Source of the DNA: Pseudomonas sp. MM213
GTDB taxonomy: Bacteria > Pseudomonadota > Gammaproteobacteria > Pseudomonadales > Pseudomonadaceae
DNA: 64,000 nt
Assembly: GCF_020423045.1 (NCBI RefSeq)
Contig: NZ_CP081943.1
Coordinates: 2,294,001 to 2,358,000, forward strand
Direction of reading: 5' to 3'
The translations under genes were made by a program, and so were the position numbers. Under the pieces are notes generated by a model that did not search any database, was not told where the DNA came from, and saw nothing but the letters and a program-made list of their open reading frames with translations. Shown here one piece after another: positions 44,001-59,945 of the stretch (the stretch's first letter is position 1; the number at the start of each line of letters is the position of its first letter).

Positions 44001-44300
44001 TACATATCCGTTGCTGCGGTAACGGCTTCTATTGGTTTCGCCCTTACGGCGAGTCACTTGGAAGAGCCCCAAGTAACCAAGGGCTCTTGCCCCTTTCGTT
44101 CGGTGGCTCGCTAAGGCTCGGCATACCCTCGCTCCGGTCCTGCTCCGTGGGCCCGCCGCCATCGGCCATCCATGGCCGGGGGCGGCTAACCCGGCATCCA
44201 TGCCGGGTTGCCCACTGCGCAGAACCTGCGCTCGGCCTCTCGAGGGGGCGCTCAGATCAAAAGCTGAAGGCGAGCTAACGCTCGGCCTGATGAGTGGTGA
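44001..44300 (+). repeat. 300-bp dispersed intergenic repeat, copy 2
   Basis: Same order and orientation as copy 1 (16307-16609), with near identity across most of the length. The clearest block difference is at 44056-44088, where both sides of a hairpin have changed together. It begins 26 bases after the PstS-OmpA gene. Confidence 0.85.
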
Positions 44301-44599: not shown

Positions 44600-44850
44600 C
44601 CCCCTCGAGAGGCCGAGCGCAGGTTCTGCGCAGTGGGCAACCCGGCATGGATGCCGGGTTAGCCGCGCACGGCCAAGGATGGCCGATCGCGGCGGGCCCA
44701 CGGAGCAGGACCGGAGCGAGGGTATGCCGAGCATTAGCGAGGCACCGAACGAAAGGGGCAAAAGCGCTTTGGTTACTTTCGCGCTTTTCGAAAGTGACTC
44801 GCCGTAAGGGCGAAACCAATAGAAACCGTTACCACAACAACGGATATGTA
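44600..44850 (-). repeat. 300-bp dispersed intergenic repeat, copy 3 (inverted, 3'-truncated)
   Basis: On the minus strand this runs from GTACATATCCG (44850) to GCCTCTCGAGGGGGCG (44600), then departs from copies 1 and 2, so about 50 bases at the 3' end are missing. It has diverged more than copies 1 and 2 have from each other, and carries compensatory changes in the GCCGCC/GGCGGC stem. Another REP half (44884-44910) follows. Confidence 0.82.
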
Positions 44851-56628: not shown

Positions 56629-57186
56629 ATGCAAGACAACGATTTTTCCCTGTTCAAAAGCGCGATCCAAGGCGTCAAGCCGATCAAGCACGATCGCGCC
56701 GAAACCGGCAAACCCAAAGCTGACCGCGCGCAGATCGCCAAGCTGCGTCAAGCCGCCACCGTGCGCACCGATGCCACCACCGTTGACGGCCTGTCCGATC
56801 AGTTCGTGATCGACGTCGGCCCGGAAGACGAGCTGATGTGGGCGCGTGACGGCGTACAGGAAAGCCAGATGCGCAAGCTCAAGATCGGGCAAATCCCCTT
56901 CGAAGGCAGCCTCGACCTGCACGGCATGAGTGTGGAAAAGGCCCGGGAAACCCTCTGGGCATTCCTGGCGGAAGCGACCAAATTCGAAATCCGCTGCGTG
57001 CGCGTCACCCACGGCAAAGCCGTGCGCCTGGACGGCAAGCGGCCGATGATCAAAAGCCACGTCAACACCTGGCTGCGCCAGCATTCACAGGTACTTGGCT
57101 TCACCTCGTGCCAGGCGAAACATGGTGGTGCCGGAGCAGTTTATGTGATGCTCAAACGCACCATGATGGAAGGTCGCGACGAGTAA
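56629..57186 (+). CDS. Smr-domain DNA endonuclease-like protein (SmrA type)
   Basis: 185 residues: a flexible charged N-terminal part (1-90) and a C-terminal Smr domain (about 92-178). The domain hallmarks LDLHGMSVEKAR, VRVTHGKA and KHGGAGAVYVML are intact. Standalone Smr proteins are nicking nucleases related to the MutS2 tail, with proposed roles in RNA or DNA processing. GGAGGC precedes the ATG. The gene stands between the small membrane protein and the phage-repressor-like locus. Confidence 0.9.
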   Translation: MQDNDFSLFKSAIQGVKPIKHDRAETGKPKADRAQIAKLRQAATVRTDATTVDGLSDQFVIDVGPEDELMWARDGVQESQMRKLKIGQIPFEGSLDLHGMSVEKARETLWAFLAEATKFEIRCVRVTHGKAVRLDGKRPMIKSHVNTWLRQHSQVLGFTSCQAKHGGAGAVYVMLKRTMMEGRDE

Positions 57187-57267
57187 AGTCGTTGCGCCAC
57201 GCTTGCAGCGTCGTATCCGCCACATCGATCTGGCTACTGGCTGACCACTCAGTGCAGGTATACCGAC

Positions 57268-57303
57268 TTGCAATGATATGGGAGCTCCCGTAATACTTCG
57301 CAG
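57268..57303 (+). promoter_or_regulatory. Promoter of the repressor gene with internal operator
   Basis: TTGCAA (57268-57273) and TAATAC (57291-57296) are 17 bases apart. The palindrome TATGGGAGCTCCCGTA (57277-57292) fills the spacer and touches the -10. Transcription would start at about 57303, i.e. directly at the ATG (57304), and there is no ribosome site, so the message looks leaderless, as for lambda cI made from PRM. Confidence 0.75.
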
Positions 57304-58016
57304 ATGGAATTTAAAGAAAGACTCAAAACAGCCCGCCAACACGCCAAGCTCAATCAGACCGAGCTTGCCGAGCGCGCGGGGCTGACTCAAACCTCAATCT
57401 CCGACCTCGAGCGCGGGAAATCGAAAGCGACAGCCTTTGTTGCCCAGATCGCTTCAGTGTGTGGCGTTTCACCGATGTGGCTGGCTGAAGGTGTCGGTGA
57501 CATGCTTAAAGGGGTCTCCCCCCTCCAGGCATTTCAATGTCAGACATCCAGCCTTGGGACGACAGCACACCCCTGGATGACGATGAGGTTTATGTCCCCT
57601 TCCTGCGTGAAGTTGAGCTGGCGGCGGGTTCAGGCCGATTCGTGATCGCAGAAAACGACAGCGCCAGGCTGCGTTTCTTCAAGAAAGACCTGCGTCACAA
57701 TAACGTGCAGTTCAACAACGCCAGGTGCGTGTCGGTGAGTGGGAACAGCATGTTCCCGGTACTGCGCGACGGCGCCACCGTCGGCATGAACATTGGCAAG
57801 AATTCGCTGGGCGACATCGTCGACGGCGACATGTACGCGATCAACCACAACGGCCAGCTCCGTGTGAAACAAGTCTACCGACTGCCCAGCGGGATCCGTC
57901 TACGCAGCTTCAACCGTGACGAGCATCCGGACGAGGACTACACCTTCGCCGAGATCCAGGAGCAGCAGATTGCGATCCTGGGTCATGTCTTTTGGTGGGC
58001 AATGTATTCGCGGTGA
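57304..58016 (+). pseudogene. CI/LexA-like S24-family repressor, split by a frameshift
   Basis: Two overlapping frames make up one phage-type repressor of about 237 residues. Frame 1 (from ATG 57304) encodes an XRE helix-turn-helix (residues about 14-60, [20 protein letters not shown]) and runs out of frame to 57645. Frame 2 (57537-58016, ATG 57537) encodes the S24 autoprotease: cleavage site Ala30-Gly31 (LAAGSG), nucleophile Ser71 (GNSMF) and general base Lys111. The break falls in a run of six C residues (57518-57523); one extra C would give continuous ...[12 protein letters not shown].... It may be a true mutation, a phase-variable tract, a sequencing error or two separately made domains (CAGG lies before ATG 57537). 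Confidence 0.85.
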
Positions 58017-58090
58017 ACCGAGTTGCGGTGATTCGTGAACGTCCAGTGCCATGACGTGCAATACAGCAAATCGACGCACATCCAAGAGGA

Positions 58091-58115
58091 GCCCGCCAAG
58101 CGCGGGCTTTTTTTT
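58091..58115 (+). terminator. Rho-independent terminator of the repressor gene
   Basis: Stem GCCCGC/GCGGGC with a five-base loop, followed by eight T residues, 75 bases after the repressor stop. Confidence 0.9.
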
Positions 58116-58143
58116 GCACCTGAAATACAGGCGCAGAATAAAA

Positions 58144-58186
58144 TATGGGAATACCCGTTTACACAAAATATGGGAACGCCTATATT
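58144..58186 (+). promoter_or_regulatory. Promoter of the PL7 gene covered by two repressor-type operators
   Basis: TTTACA (58158-58163) and TATATT (58181-58186) are 17 bases apart, a good sigma70 promoter. TATGGGAATACCCGTT (58144-58159) overlaps the -35 and TATGGGAACGCCTATA (58169-58184) covers spacer and -10. Both resemble the palindrome in the repressor's own promoter and are 25 bp apart within a direct repeat of AAAATATGGGAA. The rest of the 314-base gap (58017-58330) holds the terminator above and a leader of about 140 bases with no feature I can name. Confidence 0.75.
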
Positions 58187-58330
58187 CGTATTCAAGCCAA
58201 CGGGAAATCGATCGGAAGCTGCCAACTATCACTTCTGCCCATTCATTGAGTGGGCAGTGGGATGTAGGCCTGCATCAAACGCAAGGCTCACCAGAGCAAA
58301 AAGCGACATCAATGGACTGAGGTAAAAACC

Positions 58331-59005
58331 ATGACTGTAGACATCAGCAACTTCACCATCGCTACCCCGCTTCCAATCTCCGACACCAACCCGATTGCGC
58401 TTGAGCTCATCGGCTGGCGCGCACTGCTCGAATGCCCCGACGTCATCTCAATGCTTGAAGATGGTTCGCTGCAGATGACGGCGCCGACGCTTGGAGCGTC
58501 CAGCAAGAGCACGCTACGAACTCGCTGTGAGTGGAAGGAGCCAGGTTACTGGCTGTTCTCCAGCGCAGCGGACCACTGGAACCGCCAGGAAATGCGACTG
58601 ACCAAAGTCAACTCGCTGCAGAAAGTCGTGATTGGCCAAATTCATGTGAAGGGTTCAGAACGACCTCCAGTGAAGGTGTTCTGGAACAAAGGAAAAATCA
58701 CCATGGGGTTCCGGTCAAGCTACCTCCAGGACGACCCGGTCAACTCGACGGTGTTGGAGAATGTACCGCTCGGTGCACTTTTCAAAATCAACATTCACGC
58801 AAACTCGAGCGGCGCCGTTTCTGTATCGGCCAGCTGTAACGGCGTCAAATCCACTTCCGCGATCATGCGCCTCGACAACACTTGGGACACGAAAACGCTT
58901 GCCTTTCACGGCGGCGTGTACAACCAGATCGATTACTCCGACACCACCGACCCGCTAGACGGTTCCGTCTGCATCATCAGCGATCTGTCGATCACTCACG
59001 CCTGA
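58331..59005 (+). CDS. Polysaccharide lyase family 7 (alginate lyase-like) protein
   Basis: A 224-residue beta-jelly-roll protein. The three PL7 catalytic blocks are recognisable in altered form: RTRCEW (Arg63/65, for RxELR), VIGQIH (Gln103, His105) and GGVYNQ (Tyr197, for KAGxYxQ). Known PL7 enzymes cleave alginate by beta-elimination; activity here is inferred. There is no signal peptide, so the protein would stay in the cytoplasm unless cells lyse. TGAGG precedes ATG 58331. It is preceded by a promoter bearing repressor-type operators and follows the split repressor gene. Confidence 0.8.
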   Translation: MTVDISNFTIATPLPISDTNPIALELIGWRALLECPDVISMLEDGSLQMTAPTLGASSKSTLRTRCEWKEPGYWLFSSAADHWNRQEMRLTKVNSLQKVVIGQIHVKGSERPPVKVFWNKGKITMGFRSSYLQDDPVNSTVLENVPLGALFKINIHANSSGAVSVSASCNGVKSTSAIMRLDNTWDTKTLAFHGGVYNQIDYSDTTDPLDGSVCIISDLSITHA

Positions 59006-59399
59006 TAGACCTGCCCGGCCTGATGAGCAAAACAGGTTTCAGGGGAACATCACTGCTGCAGCCTGGCGACAGGCTGTAGCGGGATGCGGATAAAATCCGG
59101 CAGGCCTGCGCGACCGACAAACACTTGCAGGCCGCAACGACCGATTTTGGGCTTCGCGCCCGCTGGCAATACAACTGCCGTCACACATACGCTACCATGT
59201 GCCTCATGTCGGGGATGAACCCTGCGTTTTATTGCCACTCGGCTCGGTCGTAGCGTTCAGATGTTGCTATCGACCACGCCCGACGAATCAACTCCGGCAT
59301 CGACCAGAGTGAACGGGCCGTTTGAAACGAGCTCGATTGGTACAACATTGGTACAGACAGAAACAGTACCCCTCTGAAACCCTTATGGAATCAGCCCCT
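59006..59399. other. Gene-free stretch between PL7 gene and folE
   Basis: 394 bases without a convincing gene. It holds a stable hairpin, GCTGCAGCCTG/CAGGCTGTAGC closed by a GCGA tetraloop (59055-59080), the inverted segment GCCTGC...GCAGGC (59107-59139), and a small GGGC...GCCC hairpin near 59146-59158. A 62-codon minus-strand frame (59050-59238) has no ribosome site. The folE promoter must lie near the right end. Confidence 0.4.
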
Positions 59400-59945
59400 G
59401 TGACACTGGAACAGAATTACACCGCGATTCTCGGCCAATTGGGCGAGGACGTCTCCCGCGAGGGCCTGCTCGACACGCCAAAACGTGCCGCCAAAGCCAT
59501 GCAGTACCTCTGCCGCGGTTATGAACAGACACTGGAAGAAGTCACCAACGGTGCCTTGTTCAGCTCCGACAACAGCGAAATGGTGCTGGTGAAAGACATC
59601 GAGCTCTACTCGTTGTGCGAACATCACCTGCTGCCGTTCATCGGCAAGGCGCATGTCGCCTACATCCCGAGCGGCAAAGTGCTGGGCCTGTCGAAAGTCG
59701 CGCGGATCGTCGATATGTACGCCCGCCGCCTGCAGATCCAGGAAAACCTCAGCCGCCAGATCGCCGATGCGGTCCAGCAAGTCACCGGCGCCCTGGGCGT
59801 TGCGGTGGTGATCGAGGCCAAGCACATGTGCATGATGATGCGCGGTGTGGAGAAGCAGAATTCGACGATGATCACCTCGGTGATGCTCGGTGAGTTCCGC
59901 GAAAACGCGGCGACCCGCAGCGAGTTTCTCAGCCTGATCAAGTAA
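59400..59945 (+). CDS. folE: GTP cyclohydrolase I
   Basis: A 181-residue enzyme that converts GTP to dihydroneopterin triphosphate, the first step of folate (and pterin) synthesis. Zinc ligands are the cysteine and histidine of [10 protein letters not shown] near residue 74 and the later cysteine in KHMCMMMRG. The start GTG 59400 gives the family length ([13 protein letters not shown]) and has GGA about nine bases upstream; an ATG at 59385 would add five residues. The gene has its own terminator. Confidence 0.93.

Follow-up and report, generated by a model that had tools for sequence, protein, structure and literature searches.

A Lambdoid Prophage Remnant in Pseudomonas sp. MM213 with an Alginate-Lyase-Like Cargo Gene behind Putative CI Operators

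Lambda-type immunity is built from the repressor CI, the right operators OR1 to OR3, the left operators OL and the promoters PRM and PL. We analyzed a 64,000-nucleotide stretch of Pseudomonas sp. MM213 (contig NZ_CP081943.1; "the window" denotes this whole stretch), in which a broken cI-like repressor gene precedes a gene for an alginate-lyase-like protein of polysaccharide lyase family 7 (PL7). Viral relatives of this locus share with lambda an S24 repressor, three OR sites, two OL sites and a divergent Cro-like gene, and an operator likewise lies in the PRM spacer. In the window, by contrast, a single OR site and two OL sites remain, cro is absent and cI is broken. We propose that the locus, which lies between smrA and folE, is what remains of a lambdoid Pseudomonas prophage, comprising an immunity switch and a PL7 cargo gene behind a CI-held PL, and we give this explanation as a whole, SOS and lysis steps included, a probability of roughly 0.82.

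Three other described systems come close in part. PseuP_222 (OP626800), the nearest isolated phage by cI (81.6% identical), has three OR sites of the same type; it differs in standing outside the phage records with a PL7 match and in having one further site only in the stretch read. Mitomycin C or UV treatment of its host strain gave no plaques, and the portion of the paper available to us gives no induction from a lysogen (PMC10305613). The PL7 alginate lyase PA1167 of P. aeruginosa (structure 1VAV) shares the fold, a similar length, the QIH motif and the Tyr of the C-terminal motif with the window protein. In contrast to PA1167, with which it is 24% identical in structural alignment, the window protein has His193 for the usual Lys, and its gene is phage-derived and apparently CI-operated. 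In the AlpR-AlpA-alpBCDE self-lysis system of P. aeruginosa, according to the part of the source available, a repressor that cleaves itself upon damage likewise stands over chromosomal cargo (PMC7969949). There the cargo comprises an antiterminator and lysis genes instead of a PL7 gene, and the likeness drawn here is one of description. We found no paper on a cI-PL7 cassette among those judged by title and start of abstract, and no lyase words in the main text of PMC6544186.

Operators, promoters and the repressor gene

The original prediction placed a palindrome in the spacer of the repressor's own promoter and two relatives over the -35 and -10 of a promoter in front of the PL7 gene. Our scans found all three where they had been put, at 57277, 58144 and 58169, with one, three and two mismatches, respectively, to TATGGGA-N2-TCCCATA. 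The first lies inside the 17-bp spacer of TTGCAA...TAATAC, directly followed by the repressor ATG at 57304; this promoter match is weak, below the level reported by a consensus scan. The promoter on the PL7 side, TTTACA-17-TATATT, is the sole promoter-like site in 57150-58400, where shuffled sequences average 0.6, and it precedes a full-length PL7 gene. The 58144 palindrome overlaps its -35, and the 58169 palindrome its spacer and -10. With up to three mismatches, the pattern has five matches in the window, these three among them, compared with 0.77 expected (standard deviation, 0.94); none of 100 shuffles reached five.

An intact phage relative accounts for the number and positions of these sites. 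Two of our viral loci, L099 and L159, are views of one 56.8-kb viral contig, whose cI is 89% identical to that of a genomic relative of the window (L009) and whose PL7 is about 94% identical. The gap between its cI and the divergent Cro-like gene, identified by YdaS/P22-Cro profiles, contains TACGGGAATGCCCATA, TATGGGAATACCGATT and TATGGGAGCGCCCGTA at 24-bp spacing. Before its PL7 gene lie TATGGGAATACCCGTT and TATGGGATTGCCTATA, 25 bp apart, on TTGACA-17-TATATT. The window palindromes are thus explained as the OR copy nearest to cI and the two OL copies of this lambda-like set. We collected 31 viral loci with this cI type (82 to 89% identity; L159 to L189), some of them near-duplicates and some short. 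Three OR sites were present in 30 of the 31. The complete OL pair was present in 28, invariably at a distance of 25 bp. Repeated operators at cI and at the left promoters are what a lambdoid OR/OL arrangement would look like in sequence.

Six viral loci were read gene by gene, with genes in viral loci and relatives called by a simple open reading frame scorer rather than a gene finder. They showed, in this order, cI, small genes, PL7 and further early genes; RecT is encoded in L099, and integrase-like genes lie near the far end in some of the six. Taken together, the comparisons support the view that the palindromes are repressor operators common to cI and the PL7 promoter. Chance palindromes are ruled out by the shuffles, the copies in the intact prophage, the sites of other lineages described below and the 31 viral loci.

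The repressor gene of MM213 is split into two overlapping frames, 57304-57645 with the helix-turn-helix (HTH) domain and 57537-58016 with the S24 domain. In an alignment with seven relatives, 22 bp are absent from the window gene at about 57512-57518 (offsets, 233 versus 255), and the two domains are joined in a single protein in the relatives. An uninterrupted 244-residue cI is found in 8/8 other genomes with the remnant (L009 to L014, L032, and L249 from genome G046). A 22-bp sequencing error is an unlikely cause. Because the S24 half is not unusually diverged (dN of 0.014 to 0.025 to the seven relatives), we take the break to be recent. The predicted self-regulated CI-like repressor therefore holds as far as an operator at its own promoter is concerned, but not as a working repressor in this strain.

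The S24 domains were inspected for an Ala-Gly cleavage site and catalytic Ser and Lys residues, which we take to be the consensus of CI/LexA-type repressors. The window S24 half and the lineage B repressors, introduced below, have all three (ELAAGSG, GNSM and RVKQ). In lineage C repressors the Ser and Lys are present, but where the cleavage site is expected a plain Ala-Gly is missing, which makes an SOS response of that lineage less certain. As the repressor is split by the deletion, SOS control of PL7 has probably been lost in MM213, and the sequence makes it most likely that PL7 is derepressed or weakly repressed and not SOS inducible there. In relatives with an intact cI, SOS induction of PL7 can reasonably be regarded as plausible or likely. 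The same MM213 genome encodes another CI-like repressor (G000:C1:6024025-6024714; L251), 64% identical and with a different HTH. Rescue of repression by another genomic CI was rejected, as this next best candidate has none of these sites nearby.

Remnant lineages and prophage origin

Eight other genomes carry the same remnant beside smrA (lineage A, nine members with the window), and folE is seen in seven of them; the contig of L010 ends before folE. The original prediction had proposed the motif at orthologous repressor-PL7 loci as a check, and all three sites (at most three mismatches) are present in 7/7 scanned relatives (L009 to L014 and L032). In lineage B (L016, L017, L019, L023, L024 and L025) the HTH is different, the flanks are partly different, and TAGCAGC-GCTGCTA-type sites occur one to three times before cI and once or twice before PL7 at up to three mismatches. 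Lineage C (L031, L033, L034, L036 and L121) has sites of the TTTAGC-N5-GCTAAA type, 17 nucleotides long, before both genes. It also takes in six of 11 genome stretches, which have upstream neighbors in common and carry such sites before cI and PL7 in 6/6; at least two of the six (L239 and L241) match named loci in gene content. Operators thus covary with the cI type, lineages B and C having different palindromes at both promoters. Matches with up to three mismatches are expected by chance 0.4, 0.5 and 1.95 times per 10.7-kb locus for the A, B and C patterns, respectively. Three-mismatch C sites alone therefore mean little, and it is the sites with zero to two mismatches that carry lineage C.

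We also compared the regions upstream of cI and PL7 pairwise. A locus's own pair shares palindromes more than mismatched pairs do (mean, 8.6 versus 5.9), and 24 of 61 own pairs lie above the 95% point set by 366 controls. These loci are not mutually independent, and some cI starts, placed by rule, are possibly wrong (e.g., L016). A tree built from 65 distinct PL7 sequences places A (9 tips, support 0.999) and B (6 tips, 1.0) in separate clades inside the phage diversity. The tree was rooted on C tips, so that it is silent on the unity and origin of C. The sequences thus point to at least two clear independent origins of cI-PL7 remnants and one more probable, each with its own operator.

Selection was estimated from pairwise NG86 (Nei-Gojobori) dN/dS values as a ratio of means, the pairs not being independent tests. 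For PL7 the ratio is 0.067 in A (36 pairs) and 0.058 in B (15 pairs). Within A, the HTH gives 0.14 (28 pairs) and the S24 domain 0.074 (36 pairs), with 0.053 for the folE control (21 pairs); the lineage C cI gives 0.067 (7 equal-length pairs). By this measure the sequences demonstrate that PL7 is under purifying selection, as is cI in the relatives.

The original prediction had stated that no integrase gene lies near. This is contradicted by an integrase tail at 59095-59385, which starts about 90 bp after PL7 and matches residues 308 to 401 of the 401-residue integrase of L101 (46% identity over 97 residues; E = 8e-21), with stops inside. L101 is a viral contig with an intact integrase (PF00589) and a PL7 at 92% identity. 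The piece is truncated in the seven loci compared, with stops in the window, frame changes in L011, L013 and L014, and an open frame in L009, L012 and L032; the raw remnant matched no PHROG family. No lysis gene is seen in the remnant of the window.

We surveyed the smrA-folE gap in the 30 best folE loci from a search of 57 genomes. Measured between the facing ends of the smrA and folE matches, the gap is 72 to 81 bp in 16/30, 111 bp in 1/30, 323 to 679 bp in 4/30 and 1,365 bp in 1/30. The remaining 8/30, the window among them, have no smrA match within the 1.5 kb examined. This integrase or its tail adjoins folE in 7/30 loci, again including the window. From the short empty gaps and these seven loci we conclude that the gap is an integration site. 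GTACCC occurs both in the 3' end of the L101 integrase gene and in empty gaps. With an integrase piece flanking it and empty sites at the same place in relatives, the locus has the marks of a prophage remnant. A phage-free locus is rejected by the integrase remnant and its L101 match, and a plasmid gene by the lack of any PL7 match in 72,556 plasmid records. The features of the locus are listed in Table 1.

Table 1. Features of the smrA-folE region, in window coordinates
Feature	Position	Strand	Basis
smrA-type gene (Smr domain), left chromosomal flank	56629..57186	+	PF01713, 2.3e-24
PRM-like repressor promoter, TTGCAA-N17-TAATAC	57268..57296	+	Sequence; identical hexamers in L009 and L099
Putative operator, equivalent of the cI-proximal OR site of L099 (OR3-like)	57277..57292		Palindrome scan, relatives
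Repressor fragment 1: HTH, then out-of-frame tail	57304..57645	+	HTH_3, 1.9e-12; about 72 codons match relatives
22-bp deletion (frameshift), approximate site	57512..57518	+	Alignment with 7 relatives with the remnant
Repressor fragment 2: S24 peptidase/dimerization domain	57537..58016	+	Peptidase_S24, 1e-16; Ala-Gly, Ser and Lys present
Putative OL-type operator, upstream copy, overlaps -35	58144..58159		Palindrome scan, relatives
PL-like promoter before PL7, TTTACA-N17-TATATT	58158..58186	+	Promoter scan; TTGACA-N17-TATATT in the L099 phage
Putative OL-type operator, downstream copy, overlaps spacer and -10	58169..58184		Palindrome scan, relatives
Covarying hairpin element (TATCAC...GGGATG), PL7 leader	58227..58264	+	Covariation counts
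PL7 (Alginate_lyase2) protein, 224 residues, PHROG 31475	58331..59005	+	PF08787, 6.8e-41; phrog_31475, 5e-137
Second covarying hairpin element, downstream of PL7	59048..59086	+	Covariation counts
Decayed C-terminal part of phage integrase, internal stops, ends at folE	59095..59385	+	Match to L101 integrase
GTACCC, likely attachment (att) core	59366..59371		3' end of L101 integrase and empty smrA-folE gaps
folE (GTP cyclohydrolase I), right chromosomal flank	59385..59945	+	PF01227, 3.2e-75

The smrA-folE gap (57187-59384 in the window) is a repeated integration site in the relatives. The window folE is matched from residue 1 in six of the seven integrase loci, the window being one of the six, and from residue 2 in the seventh; all 16 short-gap loci match it only from residue 6. 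Because of this difference in the start of the match, integration may have supplied a new 5' end of folE.

Hairpins of 38 to 39 nucleotides, CATCAC-[stem]-xGGATG, recur in the left-arm leaders of the prophages; their ends are conserved and their stems covary. In addition to the two copies in the window, they occur in L028, L086, L109, L113 and many viral loci. In an alignment of 24 elements, most of them picked with a hairpin filter, 97.9% of the cells are paired and 57 are changed on both sides, with a covariation of 0.496 compared with no more than 0.080 after sliding. When the filter was left off, 167 loci yielded 46 distinct flank matches of that length, of which 43 form seven or more of the nine stem pairs; eight control spacings gave zero to four matches each. 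One stem variant is present in 6/99 genomes of the genus. Rfam gave no match on the stretch of the window locus up to an E value of 0.1. Elsewhere in the window, a 17-nucleotide repeat, TAAGGGCGAAACCAATA, occurs as identical inverted copies at 44030-44046 (minus strand) and 44805-44821 (plus strand), with about 760 bp between them.

The PL7 protein and the weighing of explanations

The PL7 protein matches PF08787 over its full length (residues 3 to 223; 141 bits against a cutoff of 29.7). Its AlphaFold2 model (predicted local distance difference test, 94.9; predicted template modeling [TM] score, 0.91) is a beta-jelly roll, and the nearest solved fold is that of PA1167 (TM score, 0.82). The PL7 motifs are given as RXEXR, QXH and YXKAGXYXQ in the part of the source available (PMC8618178). 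The window protein has RCEWK, QIH and AFHGGVYNQ, in which R, E, Q, H, G, Y and Q are retained and the last R of the first motif is replaced by K, the first Y by A, K by H and A by G. R65, E67, Q103, H105, Y197 and Q199 are invariant in 17/17 aligned members, with H193 at the position of the motif Lys. The protein is probably a lyase, of uncertain substrate. Inspection of its N terminus agrees with the original prediction that it lacks a signal for export.

The protein belongs to PHROG 31475, a family annotated as of unknown function that also includes proteins of the phages Psa21 and vB_PpuM-Aura and is carried in the left operon of many prophages. It had no match in NCBIfam or, at an E value of 0.01, among the PADLOC profiles. 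We counted 35 PL7 loci in named genomes and 52 in viral contigs. Only 12 of 50,697 phage records have a match, all of them Pseudomonas phages, two being those of the jumbo phage Psa21 at 61% identity; some match, mostly distant, is present in 167 of 199 genomes of the genus. Where PL7 identity reaches at least 79%, an upstream cI-like match on the same strand (E of at most 1e-6) accompanies PL7 in 18/22 genome and 39/45 viral loci, and in the 55 to 65% class in 4/13 and 1/6, respectively; the length of upstream sequence varies between loci, the cI match is short or weak in some, and L125 was unscored. Jumbo and other large phages (L126, which is Psa21, L117 to L120, and L128) carry the family at about 36 to 65% identity, and no cI-like match lies upstream of PL7 in L117 to L120.

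In the six lineage C stretches, cI, a DUF1654-like gene and PL7 are present in 6/6. A holin-like gene in four and an endolysin-like gene in two run divergently from cI, and the operators lie in between; lysis genes are absent from some of the six. For the lysis and DUF genes, only the L034 copies were matched to families (phrog_2658, "hol-like chemotaxis"; phrog_90, endolysin; PF07867), and the others were named by near-identical sequence. The holin- and endolysin-like genes lie over the lineage C operators and beside PL7 at L034 2390-4764 and also in L033, L121, L240 and L241. From its sequence this arrangement is possibly a CI-held lysis cassette, and it is the nearest, if indirect, counterpart of the lysis-released effector that was originally predicted.

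On the architecture, operator repeats, prophage origin and split window repressor, which the comparisons above demonstrate, a mechanism can be proposed in which we infer CI binding, SOS cleavage, PL7 enzyme activity and release at lysis. In a lysogen of the intact phage, CI would hold PL off. DNA damage would lead to RecA-stimulated self-cleavage of CI, PL would open, and PL7 would be made early, stay in the cytoplasm and leave the cell at lysis. The released enzyme would then cut an alginate-like polymer around the dying cell. Of this system the window would retain cI with its own promoter and an OR3-type operator, PL with two OL operators, PL7 as first gene of the left operon, and the integrase tail.

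Several observations qualify this explanation or weigh against it. The operator pattern is not enriched genome-wide: at up to two mismatches there are four palindromic places in 6.75 Mb, two of them at the locus, and a reversed control gives seven. The operator claim therefore rests on clustering and conservation, the bare count not being special. Of the 61 own cI/PL7 pairs, 37 do not exceed the 95% point of the controls. Among the 22 viral loci with genes listed after OL, PL7 occurs only in L159, the others having varied small genes, so that PL7 is one of several cargoes in the early left-operon slot; such variety also fits an early intracellular function. The substrate motif departs from the textbook form at Lys69, Ala191, His193 and Gly194, for which reason the substrate may not be alginate, and PL7 dN/dS is higher in lineage C, at 0.18 (15 pairs). 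Finally, judging from the split gene, the HTH half alone or the S24 half alone might retain some activity in MM213.

An early intracellular role of PL7 in host takeover, antirestriction-like activity or other phage functions, instead of that of a lysis-released depolymerase, would suit the first slot of the left operon with its varied occupants in related phages, the N terminus without the look of a signal peptide, and the Psa21 homologue, which sits among tRNA and hypothetical genes. We nevertheless hold it to be unlikely, given the PL7 fold with its His and Tyr positions invariant in 17/17 members, the lack of a PADLOC match, and the presumed lack of an obvious polyuronate substrate in the cytoplasm. 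A virion-attached depolymerase is highly improbable: Pseudomonas phage alginate-degrading enzymes are counted among virion-associated enzymes in the part of the source available (PMC5380687), and the vB_PpuM-Aura homologue adjoins a minor tail protein and a lipase, but that tail gene is on the opposite strand, in the temperate-phage loci read, PL7 has cI on one side and recombination or other early genes on the other, at a distance from structural genes, and PL7 is kept in remnants where no structural gene is seen.

PL7 might also be a passenger gene in decay within a dead prophage, functionless today, its operators being fossils. The prophage is indeed down to two genes and an integrase tail, the window repressor is broken, and 4/22 close genome loci, such as L015, have PL7 without an upstream cI match. 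However, PL7 is intact in 9/9 genomes with the remnant, its lineage A dN/dS is near that of folE, the integrase piece is in contrast truncated in the seven loci compared, and A and B are separate cI-PL7 clades; we therefore consider a mere passenger quite improbable. The original version, in which MM213 itself has a functioning SOS switch for a PL7 effector, finds some support in the intact operators and promoter and in the persistence of both repressor domains as separate frames. The 22-bp deletion that parts the HTH from the S24 domain, together with the lack of a suitable substitute CI in the genome, makes it very unlikely. The control circuit is best read as that of a lambdoid prophage.

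Implications for Pseudomonas and its phages

It is tempting, though at present rather doubtful, to view cI-PL7 as a repeatedly domesticated, SOS-triggered cassette for altruistic matrix degradation, with two clear cases and one probable case and three repressor/operator specificities, in which Pseudomonas species retained hardly anything beyond the immunity repressor and a cytoplasmic PL7 enzyme. If true, a matrix-cutting enzyme would be produced and released by a small number of damaged cells for the benefit of the others, as a public good, and in part of lineage C the operators would also govern holin-like and endolysin genes. The natural series of cI and operator swaps makes the claim of SOS control directly testable. 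For PHROG 31475, a widespread phage family, the comparisons supply a fold, a setting in which the gene is regulated and the enzyme class to which its product likely belongs, and they suggest that an alginate-lyase-like gene can serve as CI-controlled early cargo rather than as a tail spike. What is of most interest is the recurrent retention of cI with PL7: should the remnants be functional, a domesticated phage switch would link DNA damage to the breakdown of the biofilm matrix.

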